Below, piece after piece: positions 25,212 through 33,683 of a stretch of 35,577 nucleotides of DNA. The stretch lies in contig JAHEJM010000036.1 in the NCBI GenBank assembly GCA_024638815.1, positions 1 to 35,577 on the forward strand, in the 5' to 3' direction. Each line of letters begins with the position of its first letter. Position 1 is the first letter of the stretch. Made by a program: the position numbers and the translations under genes. The DNA is from Acidimicrobiales bacterium (lineage in GTDB: Bacteria > Actinomycetota > Acidimicrobiia > Acidimicrobiales > SZUA-35). The notes beneath the pieces were generated by a model, which ran no database searches, was not told the origin of the DNA, and worked only from the letters and a program-made list of their open reading frames with translations.

Positions 25212-26354
25212 TCAGGGTTCGTCGTCGTCGCCGGTCACGTCGCGGTCCTCCGGCGCCGACGGCAGCCCGCTGAGGGTCTCGACCATGGCTTCGAGCTCGA
25301 GTTCGGCGGCGGATCGGGGATCGGCGGCGGATCGGGGATCGGCGGCGGATCGGACATTGGCGGTCGGCCGGTGATAGCGAACAGCCGGTCTGGTACTCCC
25401 GGACTCGAGCAGATCATGGAGCGGTCCGCCGTCGGGCCGCGGTTCCCCACGACCGCCCTCGACCTCGTCGAGCCACGTCATTGCCGTCGTGGTCACATTC
25501 GGCGTCGTGTCGTGGTCGTCGACGGTTGATGTTGTGCCGGCACCGTTCGTCATCCCGACCGGTGGATCGGAGGCGTCCTCGGTGAGATCGACCAGTAGCC
25601 GGGCGATGGCCCGATGGAGAAGCGCGGCGCTGGCGATCCGGTTCGTCACTCGAGACGACATGGTGTGGTCGAGGAGGTCGATCACCTCGTTCGGAATCGA
25701 GTCGGGCAGCGACGCGATGAGATCGTTGGCCGACTCGCCGGGCCTGCGTTGCCGGCCGGCAAGCAACTCGGCCAGGATCAGGCCGAGGGTGTAGACGTCC
25801 GATGCGGTTGTCGCTTCGGAGCCGGCCTGTTGTTCCGGTGCCAGGTACTGGGTGGTGCCGTCGTCGAATCGCCGGGTCGACATGCCGAAAACGGAAACCA
25901 TGACGGTGTCGTTGTCGACGAGGAGATACGACGGTCGAAGGCACCCCAGGGCCAACTTCTGGGCGCCGAGTTGTCCCACGACGGCGGCGGCTTCGCCAAC
26001 CAGGGACAATGACGGACGCCAGTGGCCACTCTGCCCCAACCGATCCAGCAGACTGCCGTCGGGGTAGTAGGGCTGCACGATGTAGTCGAGTCCGTCGATG
26101 CTGGTTCCGGTCCCCAGCACGGGAGCCCATCCATCGGATCGTTCCACGGACCGAATGAGCTTTCGGGACCCGGCCCGATGGCGGCCGGGGAGAATCGGTT
26201 CGAACTCCGGCTTCAGGAGTTTGATCACGACGGTGTGGGTGGAATCAGCCGAACAATGGGCCCGAAGGACCACGTTACGGCGGGAATCGAGCACATCCAC
26301 GACCTCGAAGCCTTCGAGATGGAGTTGGGATGGATCCGGAAGGGTGTCCGCCAT
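25212..26354 (-). CDS. Predicted pseudokinase (Ser/Thr protein-kinase fold lacking catalytic residues)
   Basis: The first 250 or so of 380 residues follow the PknB-type kinase fold: VVIKLLK (the ATP-anchoring Lys, K45), IVQPYYPDGSLLDRL (hinge), YLAPEQQAG (activation-segment APE) and ASDVYTLGLILAELLAGRQ. The catalytic set is gone. The catalytic loop HRDLKPxN reads LGCLRPSY (136-143), DFG reads VFG (155-157), the Gly-rich loop has no glycines (VLDSRRNVVLRA), and no Glu sits where helix C should pair with K45. So H, R, D, K and N of the loop and D of DFG are all replaced in an intact frame. The C-terminal third is acidic and Thr-rich, ends in short RSAADP repeats, and has no membrane segment. 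Its likely role is a cytosolic scaffold or allosteric partner for the kinase encoded upstream; this is inference. Confidence 0.85.
   Translation of the reverse strand: MADTLPDPSQLHLEGFEVVDVLDSRRNVVLRAHCSADSTHTVVIKLLKPEFEPILPGRHRAGSRKLIRSVERSDGWAPVLGTGTSIDGLDYIVQPYYPDGSLLDRLGQSGHWRPSLSLVGEAAAVVGQLGAQKLALGCLRPSYLLVDNDTVMVSVFGMSTRRFDDGTTQYLAPEQQAGSEATTASDVYTLGLILAELLAGRQRRPGESANDLIASLPDSIPNEVIDLLDHTMSSRVTNRIASAALLHRAIARLLVDLTEDASDPPVGMTNGAGTTSTVDDHDTTPNVTTTAMTWLDEVEGGRGEPRPDGGPLHDLLESGSTRPAVRYHRPTANVRSAADPRSAADPRSAAELELEAMVETLSGLPSAPEDRDVTGDDDEP
25303..25353. repeat. 18-bp tandem repeat inside the pseudokinase gene
   Basis: The unit GGATCGGGGATCGGCGGC occurs at 25311-25328 and 25329-25346, with partial units on both sides. 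In the protein it encodes a repeated RSAADP hexapeptide in the C-terminal tail. Such a repeat can vary in copy number by slippage without breaking the frame. Confidence 0.85.
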
Positions 26355-26577
26355 TTTCCGCCATCAAGTCTTCAGCCGGGCGCACAGCGCAGGTCGCCCG
26401 CCGAGACGTCTGTCTCTTCGGCACCGACGTGATATGTCCGTCGCACCTGGTGAAAAGGGTAGCGATGCCGCACCCGCCTCGCCGGTGCAGCAGACCGATT
26501 GTTCCGTATGACTCACTCGGTACCCGGGTAAGACTGCCCGGATGGGAACCAACGATGGTCGCCGGTGCAGTCGGTTT

Positions 26578-27138
26578 TCAGTCCCGAAGGTCGATTTCGT
26601 CGTGGTCGGTGATCGGACGTCCACCGAGGTAGTGGGTGACGGTGTCGTCGTCGTTCGTCATGAGATACCGGAAACCGTCGCGCTGGCGGTCGGCCAGGCA
26701 GCCGAGTTCGATGTCGATCTGGTCGTCCCAGGTCGACGGGTCCACCTTGATGGCGAGACCCGATCCGAGGTCCCGATCGGGGTCGGCGAGATCGATACGA
26801 TCCTGACGCCAGATCACTTTGAGCGCCTTGACCCGGGCCTCGAGCTTGTCGGCAGTGCGAAGATAGACCCAGCCTCCTCTGCGGAGGTAGTGGGGGAAGA
26901 CCCGGGCGGCCAAGGTCGACGAGCCGATGGCCCCATCAACCGAGAACACCGGCAGCGACATGTCGAGATCTCCGGCGAGTGGAGAAATCTTGTCCGACGA
27001 CGAACTCGGGCTCTTGGTGGCTCGGGGAGTGGTGGGCGGCGGTGGGGTGACTTTCTTCGGCATGGCCAGGCATTCGAGACAAGCGGCCTCGACCTCTTCG
27101 TGTTCGCAGTAGGCGATCGATGCCGTCGATGTACCCAT
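26578..27138 (-). CDS. Hypothetical protein with Cys-containing N-terminus, in the kinase cluster
   Basis: I do not recognise this 186-residue protein. The N-terminus has YCEHEEVEAACLECL, three Cys and a His within 13 residues, which could hold a metal. A Pro/Thr/Ser/Lys-rich linker follows (about 28-58). The remaining 125 residues look globular and mixed alpha/beta, with GGWVYLRTADKLEARVKALKVIWRQD and IDIELGCLADRQRDGFRYLMTNDDD. There is no signal peptide or membrane segment. It lies 152 bp after the kinase gene and 223 bp before the pseudokinase gene, all on the minus strand, so it probably belongs to the same signalling group. The Ser/Thr-rich linker would be a reasonable substrate site for that kinase, but this is only inference. 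Confidence 0.75.
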   Translation of the reverse strand: MGTSTASIAYCEHEEVEAACLECLAMPKKVTPPPPTTPRATKSPSSSSDKISPLAGDLDMSLPVFSVDGAIGSSTLAARVFPHYLRRGGWVYLRTADKLEARVKALKVIWRQDRIDLADPDRDLGSGLAIKVDPSTWDDQIDIELGCLADRQRDGFRYLMTNDDDTVTHYLGGRPITDHDEIDLRD

Positions 27139-27290
27139 GAGCGTGTACCCCTTTCACCCTTCGACTCGAACTCTATCCTGCCTTCGACGACTGTAGTTGT
27201 CGTCCCTCCTCGAACCGGGACCTCAACACAAACGCAAAGTAACGGCGCGCGATCGTTCATAAAGGGAGGAACAGGCGTTCGCCCCCGATG

Positions 27291-29426
27291 TCAGTCGGTG
27301 GTTGCGACCACCTGATCGTCGTCCCGTGTGCCATCGCCGTGAAGGGCAATCACACTGATCGTGTAGGTGGTGTTGGGCCGAAGACCACGGATGGTCTCGG
27401 CCATCCTGGTCACACACTGACCGTCGGCGAAGGTCCTGGAGAGGCTGTCCGAGCTGTCGGGACCGGTCCAGCTCAGTCGATACGAGGCCATGCAGTCGCT
27501 GGCCTGGATCTCGACGACCAGGTTGGTTCGACGGGCTCCCGTCTGGGACACCGTGACCGCAAACGGATCCGGTTCGTTGTCGGGAACGTCGACGGTGACG
27601 GCAGCGGTGAGGTCTGACTGAGCGCTGTCCGAGCCGATCGAGGCCAGCCGGTAGTTGTGGGATCCCGGTCCGACCGTGTCGTCGACGAACGGCGAGGAGG
27701 GGACCGTGTTCACCATCTCCCCGTCTCGGTACACGGCGTAGGCAATGGGTGCCGGGCCGGACGATGGTGGCGACCACGTAAGGGTGACCACTCCGTCGGC
27801 GAAGGAGCCTGACAGATTCCCCGGCGGCTGCAGATCGCCCACGGCGATGGTGATCGAAGTGGTGCTGGACGATGTCGACGTGGACGACGAGGTCGTGGCC
27901 TCGGTCGTCGACGTGGTACTGGAGCTGGTGCTGGACGAGGCGGTTGCCGCCGTGCTCGAGGTCCCGCCGGTTGTGGCCACCGTGGCCGACGACGTGCTCC
28001 GGCCAATTGTGGTGGTCACCGCCGAGGTCACCGTGGTGGTCGCGTCGTCCTGGCCGGCGATGAGACCGTTGGTGGTGTCGGCCTCGGGGTCGACCGAACC
28101 TGACAGGTCCAGGGCGCCCTGACCTCCGGAGTCGGCGTCGACGGTGGGTGACGCCGGGTCGCCGCCGACTTCGGCGTTGTCGCTGACCGCCATTTCCGAA
28201 CCCGAGTCTCGGGTGAAGGCCCAGATCGACAGAAGACCGACGCCGATGAGGGCCAGCAGACCCACCACCACCGGACCGATCTGCAGCCGATCGAAGTCGA
28301 GCAGCGGATGCCGTTCGTCCGGTGGCTCGGAGTAGGTGACGGCGTGTGGTGCAACCTCGTGCTCGGGCTGGAGCAGGGAGCGTGAGCGGCCCGGTTCGCC
28401 GTTGGATCCGTAACTGTAGGGCGGTGAAGCACCCCGAGCGTAGTCGTCGACTCCGGTCCCCATGGCCGGCGGCCCGGGGTGGTAGGCGGCAGCAGCGGCG
28501 GCGGCTCCGGCCGCCGCCGCCGGCCCCGGTCCGATCGTGCGGGCCGACGGAATCAGCGGCGGTTGATTGCCGAACACCTTGGTTTGTTCGTTCCTGCCGC
28601 CCCGATCGGTGGCGGCGCCGGTCACGGCGGCCCGGAGTGCGGCCGAGAAGTCGGCTGCGGTGGCAAACCGGTCGCCGGGTTGTTTGGCCAGGGCCTTGTA
28701 GATCACCTGGCAAACCGACGCCGGTGCGAGATGGCCGACGTCGCCCACCGTGTTGTTCACGACCCGTCCAATTACGGCCATGAGGTTGGCGTCGTCGCCC
28801 GGGGTGAGGAACGGGGGATGGCCGACCAATAGGGCCCAGAGTGTGGCGCCCAGGCCGTAGACATCGGCCGCCGGGCTGGCTTCGCCGTCGAGGAAGGTCT
28901 CCGGTGCGCTGTAGGCCGGGGTAAAGGCGGTGCCGGTGGTGCGGGCGGTGGAACCGGCCGAGGTCAGCTTGGCGATCCCGAAGTCGGCGACGCGGGGTGA
29001 GCCGTTGCGGGTGAGCAGGATGTTGGCCGGCTTGAGGTCGAGATGCACGACACCTGCGGCGTGGGCGGCGGCGATGGTCTCGGCCGCGGCCTGCACGTAG
29101 GAGACGGCAACCTGCCACGGCATCGGTCCGGCATCGATTTGATCCTGGAGGGATCCGCTCGGATAGTAGGGCATGACCAGGTAGGGATCGCCTTGAGCCG
29201 TGAGCCCCGTGCTGTAGACGGGAACGATGCCTTCGTGGTTGGAAAGCCGACCCATGGCCTTGCGCTCGCGGTCGAATCGCCGGGCCACGTCGGCGTCATG
29301 ACCGGAGTTGATGACCTTGACCGCAACCACCCGGTCCAGCAGCGACTGATGGGCGCGATAAACCCGGGACGAACCGCCGGTGCCGATCTGCACCACGTCC
29401 TCGAGACCGTCGATTCCCAGGCTCAT
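27291..29426 (-). CDS. Membrane Ser/Thr protein kinase with extracellular fibronectin-III-like domains
   Basis: This is a PknB-type kinase of 711 residues. The cytoplasmic kinase domain (1-275) has the Gly-rich loop IGTGGSSRV, VAVKV (K37), helix-C Glu (E54), catalytic loop HLDLKPAN (D130, K132, N135), DFG (148-150) and SAPE. All catalytic residues are present; the usual HRD Arg is Leu129, so activation-loop control may differ. An Ala/Pro/Gly-rich juxtamembrane linker leads to one membrane helix (about 386-405, VVVGLLALIGVGLLSIWAF). Outside lie a long Ser/Thr-rich stalk (about 455-525) and two Fn3-like domains (beginning LQPPGNLSGSFADGVVTLTWSPP, then DPFAVTVSQTG onward). These could sense cell-wall or carbohydrate ligands. 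It lies 110 bp downstream of the FHA-protease gene. Confidence 0.93.
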   Translation of the reverse strand: MSLGIDGLEDVVQIGTGGSSRVYRAHQSLLDRVVAVKVINSGHDADVARRFDRERKAMGRLSNHEGIVPVYSTGLTAQGDPYLVMPYYPSGSLQDQIDAGPMPWQVAVSYVQAAAETIAAAHAAGVVHLDLKPANILLTRNGSPRVADFGIAKLTSAGSTARTTGTAFTPAYSAPETFLDGEASPAADVYGLGATLWALLVGHPPFLTPGDDANLMAVIGRVVNNTVGDVGHLAPASVCQVIYKALAKQPGDRFATAADFSAALRAAVTGAATDRGGRNEQTKVFGNQPPLIPSARTIGPGPAAAAGAAAAAAAYHPGPPAMGTGVDDYARGASPPYSYGSNGEPGRSRSLLQPEHEVAPHAVTYSEPPDERHPLLDFDRLQIGPVVVGLLALIGVGLLSIWAFTRDSGSEMAVSDNAEVGGDPASPTVDADSGGQGALDLSGSVDPEADTTNGLIAGQDDATTTVTSAVTTTIGRSTSSATVATTGGTSSTAATASSSTSSSTTSTTEATTSSSTSTSSSTTSITIAVGDLQPPGNLSGSFADGVVTLTWSPPSSGPAPIAYAVYRDGEMVNTVPSSPFVDDTVGPGSHNYRLASIGSDSAQSDLTAAVTVDVPDNEPDPFAVTVSQTGARRTNLVVEIQASDCMASYRLSWTGPDSSDSLSRTFADGQCVTRMAETIRGLRPNTTYTISVIALHGDGTRDDDQVVATTD

Positions 29427-29536
29427 GACGTTCAGCGTCCACGCTCCTTCATGCCGATCCTAGCCATGGTAGTCCGTTGGCGAGAATTGGCACCGTCGGT
29501 CGGGACGGGCCGTACGACCCATCGCCTCCGACTCCG

Positions 29537-31519
29537 TCACTCGTTGGCCGCCACCACCGATGACAGCCAGCCGGCGAAGGCGTCGGTGGTAATGCTTCTC
29601 GACACATCACTGCCGGTATCTGAACCGGCGAAGACCACGGCCACAACCTCCCCGTCGGCAACCACCGGGCTTCCTGACGCGCCCTCGCCACTGGTGAAGG
29701 AGGCGATGAGCACGGCATCATCGATGTCGCCGTCGGCCGAGCAGGTCACCGTGGCAGGGGCGTCGGCCGGGATGAAGTCGGCGAAGTCGGGGTTCGAGCA
29801 GCCGGGCCAGATGGCCAGATTCTCGGCCTCACCCCGTGTGGTGGCCACCGGCGACAGCCGAAGATTCCCCTCGTCGTCGGCACTCGATATCGACAATCGA
29901 CCGGGGAAGCCGGTGCTGTAGATCGGATCGCCGATGGTGACGGTCGACGAATCACCGATGATGAGGGGAGGCTGGACGGATCCCTCGACGGCATCGCCGA
30001 TGGTCACGCTGCCCTCGGCGTTGATCTCGGCCCGATTGGCGACCCGGACCACGGCCAGATCCAGATAGGGATGGTTCTCCACCAGGTTGGCGACATAACG
30101 GATCTGAGCCGGTTCGTCGGCTTCCTCCGACACCGCCACCACCAGCTGATCGGCCAGGCCGGCCACATGCTGGTTGGTGACAATCAGCGAGTCGGTGACG
30201 AAGAACCCTGACCCCTGGCCGGTGTCACCGAGCAGCATGACGGTGGCCCGCTTGGCCCGTTCCAGCTGTTCGGCCTCGGTGGCATCACCGCGGAACATGA
30301 GCCAGGCCAGAAGGCTGACCAGGATCAGGGCCGAGGCGGCCGCGGCGGCAATGGCGATGCCGGCGATGTTGCGTGGTGGCTTGTGGGTGCCGGCCGCCAC
30401 CACCCGCAACGGGGTCCCCGCCTGCTGGTCGCCCATCTGCACGATGAACGCCCCCTCGACCCGGTATGGGCCGGTGACCCGGCGCCGGTCGATATAGCTG
30501 CCCTTGGACGACGTGTCCTCCAGCCACCAGCCGCCATGGCTATGTCGAAACACCAAGTGATTCCGAGAGACCAGAGTGTGGCGTTCGTCGACGTGAACCG
30601 TGCAGCGAGGATCGCGGCCGACGGTCACCTCATGGCCCGGGAGCAGCACATGATCGTCGCCATCGATGCTGAGACGCAGGGTGTCGGATTCGACCATCGT
30701 GGCCGCCGGCCCCGAGACCATGGGTTCGGAGCGGTCCGACGCCACCGGTCGGTCGTCCTTCGAGTGCGGCATCGATGCCGGTTGCGCCCTCGGCCCCCTG
30801 TAGTCGTGGCCCTGTTCAGGTGACCATGGCGCGTCCTGCTCTTCGGAGCGGAGGTCGATGACCGCCTCGGACCGAGCGTCGTCGGCCGACGGCGCCGGCC
30901 ATTGATACCGAGACTCGGCCCCGACGGCGGTGTTGGATCCGCCGCCGACGTCCTCCGGTTCACCCGAACTCCCGCCACCGGATCGGGGAATGGAGGCCAC
31001 CGGTTCGCGGTCCGGGTCGGACCGAGGCTGATCGGCCGGACCGTCGAGCGGGTGGGGAGCGCCTGGCTCCGGTTCGGCTTGTCGGAGATCGATGTCGTCG
31101 GCGGTGCTTCGACCGGTGCCGTCGCCGGACGGAGGTGGCGGCGGACCGAAGTCGATCATGGTCGGCGGTGACTCGGGGTCGTCGTAGATCCCGGCCCGGG
31201 CCAGACGCTCGGCCAGCGCCCGGGTTATCAACCGGACCGACATTTCGGGACCTTCCGGGCCGCCGAGACGGAACACGGTGTCGGTTCCGACGATCCAAAC
31301 GGGGGAGAGGCGAACTCCGATCGGGTCGTAGCAGCCGTGGGTGGAGACATCCTCGGCCCGCCAGCTGGCCCCGGTCCAGGTGAAGATGACGTGGCGACGA
31401 GAGACGATGCCGTCGGTGACGATGACCGAGGAGCTGGAGGACCGGCCGACGACGATCGGAGAGTCGTCAGGGCCGAAGCGGGCCCGCCCGTCCCGCCAGC
31501 TGATTTCAAGATCGTGCAT
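29537..31519 (-). CDS. FHA-FHA-transmembrane-trypsin-like serine protease
   Basis: This is a 660-residue membrane protein. Two forkhead-associated domains lie in the cytoplasm: residues 1-100 (VVGRSSSSSVIVTDGIVSRRH) and about 285-375 (VTVGRDPRCTVHVDERHTLVSRNH). An acidic, Pro-rich linker of about 180 residues separates them. One membrane helix follows (about 383-407), then an outside trypsin/HtrA-like domain with VTNQHVAGLADQ (His), HPYLDLAVVRV (Asp) and SGEGASGSPVV (Ser), so the triad is complete. FHA domains bind phosphothreonine, and the adjacent gene is a Ser/Thr kinase, so the kinase may recruit or control this protease across the membrane. GGAGG five bases before ATG fixes the start. 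The conserved FHA Asn-Gly loop reads His-Gly in domain 1 and Lys-Gly in domain 2. Confidence 0.9.
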   Translation of the reverse strand: MHDLEISWRDGRARFGPDDSPIVVGRSSSSSVIVTDGIVSRRHVIFTWTGASWRAEDVSTHGCYDPIGVRLSPVWIVGTDTVFRLGGPEGPEMSVRLITRALAERLARAGIYDDPESPPTMIDFGPPPPPSGDGTGRSTADDIDLRQAEPEPGAPHPLDGPADQPRSDPDREPVASIPRSGGGSSGEPEDVGGGSNTAVGAESRYQWPAPSADDARSEAVIDLRSEEQDAPWSPEQGHDYRGPRAQPASMPHSKDDRPVASDRSEPMVSGPAATMVESDTLRLSIDGDDHVLLPGHEVTVGRDPRCTVHVDERHTLVSRNHLVFRHSHGGWWLEDTSSKGSYIDRRRVTGPYRVEGAFIVQMGDQQAGTPLRVVAAGTHKPPRNIAGIAIAAAAASALILVSLLAWLMFRGDATEAEQLERAKRATVMLLGDTGQGSGFFVTDSLIVTNQHVAGLADQLVVAVSEEADEPAQIRYVANLVENHPYLDLAVVRVANRAEINAEGSVTIGDAVEGSVQPPLIIGDSSTVTIGDPIYSTGFPGRLSISSADDEGNLRLSPVATTRGEAENLAIWPGCSNPDFADFIPADAPATVTCSADGDIDDAVLIASFTSGEGASGSPVVADGEVVAVVFAGSDTGSDVSRSITTDAFAGWLSSVVAANE

Positions 31520-31817
31520 CGTGGCCTCCGGCGGTCACCTCGCCGGCCATGGCGGCTCGTCACCCGGTTGTCTGCTCCACGGAACCGAGCGAGCGACACG
31601 CAGCCATGCCGGCGAATACCTGACCGCATCACGATACCCGACCCAGCGCGGTCAGCGGGGACTGGGGCCGGACGCGCCATAAATCTCACCGGCGCCGGAA
31701 GGCCCTCGAGACCGATATCGGTCGCAACGCTACGGTACCGGTGGTGAGCGGTTCTCGTCGCTCGACGCCGTGGGGCGGGGTTCGACGAACCCGATGTCTT
31801 GGCGTTGGATGGTGGCG
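31520..31817. promoter_or_regulatory. Upstream region of the FHA-protease/kinase cluster with a 14-bp palindrome
   Basis: No gene is visible here. A perfect 14-bp palindrome, GACCGATATCGGTC (31710-31723), stands about 190 bp upstream of the protease start and could be an operator. A second symmetrical sequence, GGGTTCGACGAACCC (31778-31792), lies after the stop of the 59-residue gene and could help end its transcript. Confidence 0.4.
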
Positions 31818-31997
31818 TTACACCGCGGCGCTGATGGCGTAGATATCCGATGGACGAACCCGGACCACGTTGCGGTCAACGGCGATGGTTACGCCCTTGG
31901 CGCCCACGGCAAGAATGGTGCCGTTGATGGTGCCGTCCGGGGTCTCGACCCGGGAGTGCCTTCCCAACATCATTGTAGGGTCAGTCATGCTCTGCAT
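31818..31997 (-). CDS. Small conserved-looking hypothetical protein (59 residues)
   Basis: This is a short gene on the minus strand. The protein begins MQSMTDPTMMLGRHSRVETP, then DGTINGTILAVGAKGVTIAV and DRNVVRVRPSDIYAISAAV. It looks like a small all-beta barrel: a short basic turn, then alternating hydrophobic strands with Gly turns, as in KOW- or SH3-like folds. I cannot name a family. AGGAG lies 11 bases before ATG 31997; a second in-frame ATG at 31988 would shorten it by three residues. An operator-like palindrome sits immediately upstream. It is in the same direction as the FHA-protease gene, about 300 bp ahead of it, so it could be the first gene of that cluster or a separate unit. Confidence 0.65.
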   Translation of the reverse strand: MQSMTDPTMMLGRHSRVETPDGTINGTILAVGAKGVTIAVDRNVVRVRPSDIYAISAAV

Positions 31998-32012
31998 CTC
32001 GTTGTCTACTCC

Positions 32013-32038
32013 TATGTCGCGCTCCGTTGAGCGACATA
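32013..32038 (-). promoter_or_regulatory. Operator-like inverted repeat before the 59-residue gene
   Basis: TATGTCGC (32013-32020) and GCGACATA (32031-32038) form a perfect 8-10-8 inverted repeat. It overlaps the ribosome-binding region of the small minus-strand gene. The spacing is typical of a dimeric repressor site; it could also fold as an mRNA hairpin in front of the Shine-Dalgarno. Confidence 0.55.
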
Positions 32039-32157
32039 CTTTGAGCGTAACTGATCGGAAACGCCGTTGCGAGATCGGCTGGAGAAATAGCCCAGAAAAA
32101 CCCCGCCGCTCTCGTTCTCAATGCCTAATGACGACTCCCGGTGATGGTTCGGGAGAC

Positions 32158-32277
32158 CTAGTTTCACTTGGCGGCTTGGATGTTCACGATTGAGTCAAGT
32201 TCCGGCGACGTTTGGCCGGAGGCCAAACTCAAGCCGTCCTCGGCCGGCGGCAGGGGCGCCGTCCCGGCGAACACTAG
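32158..32277 (+). repeat. CTAG-bounded dispersed repeat, copy A
   Basis: The 120-bp unit begins CTAGTTTCACTTGGCGG and ends GAACACTAG. It contains the palindrome GTTTGGCC-GGA-GGCCAAAC (32210-32228) and a GC-rich block that can fold on itself. Copy B repeats almost the whole unit in opposite orientation. No coding frame fits it. Confidence 0.75.
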
Positions 32278-32497
32278 ATGATTGGTTCCAAGGGGTTGGT
32301 GGTCGGCTGGTTCGGATTTCGGGTCAGTCGTGGCACGGAGGGTGTGATTGGCGAGGGTGTCCAGGCCAAGGTTTGCCGTTCCCCCGGGGCCCGGCCCCGG
32401 CCCGGGTCTATTCGGCTTTCAAGGTTCAGGTGTGGAGCGGCGCGAGTCTGCCGGTTCAGGCCACGGCCTGTACGTGGTCGCGGTGTGGACGCCACCC

Positions 32498-32599
32498 CGA
32501 GTTTGGCTGAGCCAAACTCGCCTTCCGCTTGTTGTCGGGGTCGCAGTATTGCCGGGCGCTGCCCGGCAAACCCGAGTTTGCCGAAGGCAAACTCGGGTT
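32498..32599. repeat. Cluster of three perfect palindromes with three-base loops
   Basis: CGAGTTTGGC-TGA-GCCAAACTCG (32498-32520), TTGCCGGGC-GCT-GCCCGGCAA (32549-32569), and a 14-bp stem AACCCGAGTTTGCC with loop GAA and its exact complement (32569-32599). All stems are perfect. They lie where the DUF222 similarity stops. The GAGTTTGGC/GAGTTTGCC arms resemble the palindrome inside the CTAG repeats. Confidence 0.85.
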
Positions 32600-33275
32600 G
32601 GACTTGCGAAGCAGGCCATACGGTGTCGGGATCGACGAACCGCTCCAAGGAGTTCTCGAGGATCTTCTGTCCGATCGCCAGATTCACCAACGGGGTGGTG
32701 GTGGCCGACCCCGGTGCTTCGGCCCCACCGATGACCAGGCCGACCAGGGCTTGGCCCCGGCGGCGGTTGATGGGGTCGGCTTTGCCGTCGCCTTCGGATT
32801 GCTGGCCGAACAGTCGCTGCATCTCATCGCACAGCGCGGTACCGACCGCCACCGCCGACAAAGGATCCAAGTGGAACCGGCCATCGATGGAGCCGTCGGT
32901 GTTGGTGTCCCAGGTGCACGAGGTCTTCTTGACCTGTTCTTGCACCTCGTCAGTATCGGTGTGGTTGATCAACCAGACGGTGACCCGGTTGGTGAACTCC
33001 ACAAAGTCGTGGTCCCGGGCGGCGGCCACCAGCTCGTCCTGTGAGGCGACGAGGGCGTCGTGGCGCTGGGGTTTGTCCAACGATTTCAGCTCTCGCAGGT
33101 ACCGCAGGGTCAACACCCCGGCGGCGGCCTGGGCGAGGACCGGTCAAGCAGTTCGGCCATAGGACGGCAGTCGAGGTTGGTTACCAACACCGCATCGTCA
33201 GCGGTGTGCATCAGCGTCAGGTCGTCGCTGTGTGGGTGTGGTGCCAACCCGCCGTCGGTCTCGCCTTCACTATGG

Positions 33276-33289
33276 CAAACATACGTTCT
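33276..33289 (-). promoter_or_regulatory. LexA/SOS-box-like site upstream of the DUF222 remnant
   Basis: On the minus strand the site reads AGAACGTATGTTTG. Against the actinobacterial LexA core GAAC-N4-GTTC it has one mismatch (GTTT). It precedes the first recognisable DUF222 residues in the direction of that gene. Several 13E12-family genes of Mycobacterium tuberculosis are reported to be LexA-controlled, which supports the reading. A single near-match alone is modest evidence. Confidence 0.45.
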
Positions 33290-33310
33290 ATACGCAAGCT
33301 GCTTCAACAA

Positions 33311-33539
33311 CTAATGGAAGATGAATCTGTCGGTTCACGCTCGTGAAGTGTGGGCGCCTACCGGGCCGGAATCGTCGCCGTGTGTAGGCGTGACCCGCTA
33401 GCACCCAGCCCTCAAACCTGAACCCGAACCCCCTAACCCGACACCCAAACCACCACAAACCCTCAACGCCAAACAAACAAACCCGGCCCAGCACGATCCC
33501 TCACACCCACGTGATCTCCAACCTCTTGGAACCAATCAT
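33311..33539. other. Non-coding, AC-rich stretch inside the putative element
   Basis: No gene is seen. From about 33411 to 33484 the plus strand is almost free of G and T, with runs such as CCACAAACCCTC and CAAACAAACAAACCC, a strong strand skew found nowhere else in the window. The minus-strand open frame across it gives a Phe/Gly/Arg-rich product without family resemblance. Confidence 0.6.
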
Positions 33540-33657
33540 CTAGTATGGCGAGACGGCGCCCCTGCCGCCGGCCGAGGACGGCTCGAGTTTGGCCTCCGGC
33601 CAAACATCGTCCAAACTTGACATGATCCTGAACATCCAAGCCGCCAAGCGAAACTAG
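33540..33657 (-). repeat. CTAG-bounded dispersed repeat, copy B
   Basis: The 118-bp unit is in opposite orientation to copy A. It starts and ends with CTAG, carries the palindrome GTTTGGCC-TCC-GGCCAAAC (33587-33605) and shares the GC-rich block with copy A. Differences from copy A are scattered substitutions plus a two-base length change near the inner end. It ends 26 bp before the stop of the flavin/F420-type gene. Confidence 0.75.
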
Positions 33658-33683
33658 GTCATCGATCCGGTCGATCCGCCGAC

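Follow-up and report, generated by a model that had tools for sequence, protein, structure and literature searches.

Do the genes for a transmembrane Ser/Thr kinase, a transmembrane protease with two FHA domains, and a kinase-like protein, which lie close together in an Acidimicrobiales bacterium, belong to one signalling system, or are they only neighbours? They occupy positions 25,212 to 31,997 of a 35,577-nucleotide stretch of DNA (the window), which is contig C67 of a 4.7 Mb genome in 227 contigs that is 90.8% complete. Five open reading frames (ORFs) of 59, 660, 711, 186, and 380 amino acids (aa) all lie on the minus strand, in the order 59-aa gene, protease, kinase, 186-aa gene, and pseudokinase, and are separated by 298, 110, 152, and 223 bp. 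A previous sequence-only reading had described these ORFs, their common direction, the last three gaps, and the preceding 59-aa gene, all of which we confirmed, and had grouped four or five of the genes into one envelope module. Comparison with relatives did not support that grouping: the pseudokinase is often detached, the 186-aa protein lacks a transmembrane (TM) segment, and the 59-aa gene is more widely distributed than the protease. What the comparison does show is that the intact receptor-like kinase and the two-FHA protease stay side by side in every contiguous locus and that the pseudokinase, which evolves fast, is linked genetically to the protease. We put at about even the chance that this is a lineage-specific membrane kinase locus on the PknF-Rv1747 plan, in which a kinase is paired with a two-FHA protease effector and accompanied by a linked pseudokinase.

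A receptor-like kinase and a two-FHA protease are fixed neighbours

Searches covered 39 genomes of the family, samples of 248 and 198 genomes of the order, and 296 genomes of the class. Motifs, TM segments, and gene order were compared in 12 genomes (the window and 11 relatives), and the 12 loci contained in a single contig come from 11 of the 12 members of the genus and from G013, which belongs to another genus. The reading frames of the locus are preserved in the relatives at ≈27-79% identity. In all 12 single-contig loci, the protease, kinase, and 186-aa genes have the same order and strand without an intervening gene, and the gaps are 110-365 bp. Kinase orthologues (E < 1e-100) were found in 13 of the 39 family genomes, every one of them at this locus. 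The locus is split across several contigs in G023, and the contig of G003 stops inside the kinase, with no 186-aa gene detected there.

The protease (P0004; 29537..31519, minus strand, 660 aa) contains two Pfam FHA stretches, at 31301..31456 (34.3 bits) and 30431..30628 (46.9 bits; cut-off 20.7), a TM segment located by hydropathy scan at 30311..30367, and a Trypsin_2 domain at 29636..30214 (55.4 bits, cut-off 27.6; E 1.5e-14). The single TM segment is present in all 12 genomes. Residues that define the FHA, kinase, and protease motifs are well preserved: the phospho-binding residues are intact in 11/11 FHA1 domains (the G001 gene is cut by a contig end) and in 12/12 FHA2 domains, and the His-Asp-Ser triad is intact in 11/12 proteases. 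Two Cys residues in the protease domain are conserved in 12/12, in line with a location outside the membrane. The orthologue in G009 (locus L026, 12534-14663, minus strand) has replaced the triad His and Ser and retained the FHA domains and TM segment, and is perhaps a natural pseudoprotease. The linker of the protease was also searched for a conserved TxV[D/E] phospho-site, but this candidate was dropped, as only some relatives have it.

The protease was found in 18/39 family genomes (E ≤ 1e-20). Its profile matched 5 of the 248 sampled order genomes at E ≤ 1e-30, of which one (G148) lies outside the family, and, at E ≤ 1e-25, 2 of the 296 genomes sampled from the class, which again belong to the family; these sampled searches scored only four candidates in each genome and may have missed weak relatives. 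A tblastn search with the protease against 72,556 plasmid records gave no match. Among solved structures, only the FHA domain of Rv1747 matched the protease at E ≤ 0.001. Elsewhere in the same genome, a stretch of contig C210 (L129, 3-836) has an FHA domain that follows what by eye is an ABC-ATPase-like end and that matches FHA1 of the protease.

The kinase (P0003; 27291..29426, minus strand, 711 aa) combines a kinase domain at 28668..29399 (Pkinase E 3.1e-39), a Thr/Ser-rich linker, one TM segment found by hydropathy scan at 28215..28271, and an Fn3-like ectodomain with one fn3 domain over the cut-off at 27318..27521 (PF00041, 27.8 bits, cut-off 25). A second beta-sheet stretch (residues 545-606) matches RGI_lyase under its cut-off and resembles Fn3 only by eye. 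Thus, the two-FHA transmembrane trypsin-like protease described in the sequence-only reading is borne out by Pfam and the TM scan, and its kinase with Fn3-like outside domains is borne out for the kinase, the TM segment, and one of the Fn3-like domains. The beta-3 Lys, HLDxKPAN, and DFG motifs of the kinase are intact and its TM segment is single in 12/12 genomes. Judged by eye, another kinase gene of the same genome, on contig C198 (L130), is PknG-like with a zinc-ribbon-like start and adjoins a PP2C-like gene.

From the single TM segment and the domain order of each protein, we infer that the FHA and kinase domains lie inside the membrane and the protease and Fn3-like domains outside. The earlier proposal that the protease acts on the opposite side of the membrane from the kinase and FHA domains fits this topology, which is itself predicted from sequence.

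A fast-evolving pseudokinase is tied to the protease

The last gene (P0001; 25212..26354, minus strand, 380 aa) encodes a protein with degenerate kinase motifs that scored 29.7 bits against Pkinase (cut-off 31.7) and 24.6 bits against PK_Tyr_Ser-Thr (cut-off 23.1). Neither the Asp of DFG nor the metal-binding Asn is present in any of the 12 genomes, the window included; the catalytic Asp is missing in 6/12 (with Cys in its place in the window), and the beta-3 Lys is retained in 11/12. By this conserved loss of catalytic residues, P0001 classifies as a pseudokinase, as had been called earlier. The orthologues share no more than 27-35% identity with the protein of the window; however, an FDDG motif in the would-be activation segment is present in 12/12, and the protein therefore looks maintained rather than decaying.

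Most pseudokinase orthologues have a TM segment plus a tail beyond it. The TM segment is present in 10/12 and is missing in the window and in G006, where the gene is cut by a contig end. A frameshift behind the short window protein was rejected, since no TM-like continuation was seen by eye in the three minus frames downstream. The window protein appears to reflect truncation or loss, and an assembly fault is also possible.

The pseudokinase gene lies downstream of the 186-aa gene on the same strand in all 12 loci, adjacent in 4 (223-297 bp), 1.8-2.0 kb away in 2, and 5.3-6.5 kb away in 6. Of the four genes grouped by the sequence-only reading, the protease, kinase, and 186-aa genes thus stay adjacent in relatives and the pseudokinase often does not, and a single operon that includes the pseudokinase was rejected. 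At least some interposed genes are on the opposite strand in all 8 detached loci, and 7 of these 8 carry an Rv2466c-like mycothiol-dependent nitroreductase among them (one example was checked by Pfam). In six relatives (L024, L025, L026, L027, L030, and L034) the intervening genes include one for a helix-turn-helix protein, F12; the FHA-likeness of its N-terminal half rests on a weak profile match, and it matched no solved structure at E up to 1.

Despite this variable distance, pseudokinase orthologues (E < 1e-100) were found in 14 of the 39 family genomes, and all 14 also contain the protease. Fisher's exact test gives p 2e-7 for this co-occurrence, which is overstated because the genomes are kin, and the count rests on the stated threshold, so that weaker kinase matches could hold further pseudokinases. 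Four genomes have the protease and no orthologue-level pseudokinase, namely G003 (fragmented), G050, G047, and G048. In G017, the protease and pseudokinase are 5 kb apart without a kinase or 186-aa gene between them: one contig carries PPOX and the end of an FHA-containing gene, and a second carries the FHA-protease, a 283-aa gene, SNF2, SWIM, and the pseudokinase. These data support a genetic linkage of kinase, protease, and pseudokinase that holds throughout one genus and extends to at least one more in the family.

A possible kinase-protease signalling pair and its rivals

The closest described arrangement is PknF-Rv1747 of Mycobacterium tuberculosis, in which a two-FHA ABC transporter is reported to be encoded in an operon with its kinase and to require both FHA domains in a two-hybrid assay (PMC3908365). 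As there, a two-FHA membrane effector is encoded beside a Ser/Thr kinase on the same strand. By contrast, the effector here is a single-pass trypsin-like protease, so that the locus may at most work like that pair and is not a member of that system, and it adds a linked pseudokinase and a kinase with an fn3 match in its ectodomain. PknB-FhaA-MviN likewise brings a Ser/Thr kinase, an FHA protein, and a pseudokinase into one reported envelope pathway (PMC3601408, PMC11898655). It differs in that FHA is fused to the protease at our locus, and no flippase match like that of MviN was found on the pseudokinase of the window, which gave kinase-type matches only, or of relatives L025 and L085. The protease resembles HtrA, DegS, and MarP in its membrane-anchored trypsin-like domain with a conserved triad; however, matches to the DegP, DegS, and MarP models were weak and far below cut-off, no PDZ match was found at E up to 1 (unlike HtrA/DegP), and an FHA pair is predicted across the membrane instead. 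Similarly, the kinase shares a kinase domain, single TM segment, and ectodomain with the PASTA kinases PknB/Stk1, which give its best NCBIfam match, but the score of 198 bits is under the 450-bit cut-off, and it has fn3 and no PASTA match. Thus, a two-FHA membrane effector with a kinase is already known, and a protease effector with a linked pseudokinase is new as far as our searches show.

If the locus works as a signalling pair, the Fn3-like ectodomain would influence the kinase, which would make phosphothreonines on itself, on the pseudokinase, or on the cytosolic linker of the protease. The FHA domains of the protease would dock on these phosphothreonines and thereby place or gate the trypsin-like domain outside the membrane, and the pseudokinase, which is kinase-like and usually membrane-anchored, could serve as a docking partner or allosteric regulator. 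This specific mechanism, in which a kinase and its dead sister control an outside protease from the inside through tandem-FHA docking, is in our view possible but more doubtful than the general plan of the locus. No described case of a kinase-gated FHA protease surfaced in the open-licence literature searched, and we know of no described kinase-gated inside-out protease. If true, the mechanism would join at one locus Ser/Thr phosphorylation and envelope proteolysis, which are usually studied apart in bacteria, and would make a conserved pseudokinase a natural partner in such a phosphorylation-proteolysis locus.

Several observations weigh against a signalling pair, and many of them would fit a rival account in which five separately transcribed genes have been kept together by slow rearrangement, with the kinase, protease, and pseudokinase serving different pathways. 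The upstream flank is also syntenic: of the 11 relatives compared, 9 have PPOX on the contig of the locus, and further genes of this flank, which includes a cold-shock-like gene, are syntenic in 5 to 7 loci each, and thus the conserved order may be inertia and is no proof of function. The gaps of 110-365 bp are unlike those of a tight operon. They suggest several promoters, as do the conserved block that precedes the 186-aa gene and the separate leader of the 59-aa gene. The pseudokinase is non-adjacent in 8/12 loci and lacks a TM segment in the window, and there are genomic sites where the 186-aa or the 59-aa gene is present and the protease and kinase are missing. No kinase match was found in the fetched stretches around the FHA-trypsin proteins of G050, G048, and G148 or around a paralogue in G009; in G050, the two-FHA protease is accompanied by genes that by eye are SNF2- and SWIM-like and by a TM protein that lacks a kinase. 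The G009 orthologue has moreover kept its architecture despite the loss of the triad His and Ser. Kinases are also abundant in the lineage (16 matches at E ≤ 1e-40 in G013), so that a kinase near a protease is weak evidence in cases such as G047. There, ≈0.5 kb separates an FHA protease from a kinase of 902 aa that has fn3 matches, and a RidA-like gene (by eye) on the other strand sits between them. However, slow rearrangement does not readily explain why the protease-kinase-186-aa block has no insertion in any of the 12 loci when the interval just downstream of it varies from 0.2 to 6.5 kb, nor why the orthologue-level pseudokinase was never found without the protease (14/14); and FHA and kinase domains are biochemically sensible together. 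We therefore regard the absence of any module as unlikely, although it deserves serious weight. The kinase also matches PADLOC defence models strongly (PD-T4-6, E 1.1e-61; mad6, E 1.3e-54), another point against a dedicated signalling pair, and the protease matches RT-Protease models weakly (E 1.1e-8); we read both as general domain likeness rather than as a sign of a defence system.

A different possibility is that the kinase acts mainly on transcription or other nucleic-acid processes, with F12 and SNF2-, SWIM-, and PUA-like genes as its outputs and the protease as a side branch. Of the 32 places with F12-type genes, 15 (6 of them at this locus) have a listed kinase no more than 3 kb away, where ≈0.12 would be expected randomly, but these places are not independent. 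Likewise, the protease, pseudokinase, or 186-aa gene lies near SNF2-/SWIM-type genes in G017, G050, G020, and G024, and a SWIM-type gene is near in G012; the Pfam check covered the G017 genes only, and within the genus the locus showed no genes of either type. A search of the window's own genome for F12 gave nothing at E ≤ 1e-5, and F12 has no Pfam FHA match at E up to 0.1, with an hhalign probability of 39.6% for the FHA-likeness and a pLDDT of 48 for its structural model. We consider this explanation improbable, and clearly less favoured than either the signalling pair or the simple persistence of neighbours.

Neighbouring genes and a covarying leader hairpin

The 186-aa protein (P0002; 26578..27138, minus strand) carries an N-terminal CxH...CxxC motif and matched nothing in Pfam, even at E up to 1, or in NCBIfam or PADLOC at the limits used, in keeping with its earlier description as a Cys-containing unknown protein. 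Among 20 aligned sequences, the motif is missing in one distant relative (L039), and no TM segment was found in 12/12. Its fold prediction leans to the PUA-like superfamily (ASCH, EVE, and YTH); Foldseek with the model gave no match at E ≤ 0.001, and the family matched no solved structure at E up to 1. In other genera, the 186-aa gene adjoins SWIM/SNF2-type genes without a kinase or protease. The lack of a TM segment, the PUA-like lean, and these neighbours led us to reject an envelope protein as the most likely reading. Instead, the 186-aa protein is probably an inherited neighbour and not part of a module, and its role is perhaps nucleic-acid-related. In other genera, SWIM-type and mostly also SNF2-type genes recur in the vicinity of either this gene or the FHA protease (L035, L036, L037, L085, and L086). 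A promoter-like block lies in the gap between the kinase and 186-aa genes (27139-27290), in which TACAGT is exact in 10/12 loci. A scan for promoter and terminator consensus sequences was uninformative, with 0 promoter-like sites (1.0 in shuffles) and 2 terminator-like sites (4.5 in shuffles).

Between the 59-aa and PPOX genes, the window also contains an element of ≈1.5 kb (32155-33660), which is bounded by ≈145-bp inverted repeats that are 89% identical and has no copy in the other loci fetched. An ORF inside it may resemble DUF222/HNH repeat proteins, a likeness that Pfam does not confirm.

The 59-aa gene (P0005; 31818..31997, minus strand), whose product has no match above cut-off, lies upstream of the protease in 11/12 loci; the contig of G001 ends first, and the 59-aa gene of that genome is at the end of another contig with an FHA1 piece and PPOX. 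The gene is present in 31/39 family genomes, compared to 18/39 for the protease, and in 4 of the 198 sampled order genomes, all four within the family, and is thus family-only so far. This wider spread and a leader structure of its own imply that the 59-aa gene is probably an inherited neighbour with another job and not part of a module.

The leader structure is a hairpin with a CAAyG loop start, located 29-40 nt before the ATG in the window (32008..32045, minus strand) and 28 relatives; these are 29 of the 31 leaders, the other two being at contig edges. Where several CAAyG sites were available within 80 nt upstream, the one of lowest folding energy was chosen, which favours finding a hairpin. 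Nonetheless, the six-pair core is fully paired in 29/29 leaders with compensatory changes in 5 of the 6 pairs, and the covariation score over eight pairs is 0.505 compared to 0.210 in shuffled and ≤ 0.117 in slid controls. The slid controls and compensatory changes argue against site choice as the whole cause of the hairpin. RNAalifold predicts the identical core, and pairing of the two outer pairs is limited to 58.6% of cells. We read the hairpin as a putative cis element of the 59-aa gene; its association with a single small protein across most of the family may interest RNA biologists. Rfam gave two matches around the leader, both far under the gathering score. A covariance model of the leader, scored on at most 150 first candidates per genome, so that more copies are possible, missed G016 and G049, both of which were in its training set. 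It matched 30/39 family genomes (E ≤ 0.1), and 28 of its 34 matches lie at the 59-aa gene, the best match away from it having an E of 0.0017 in G044.

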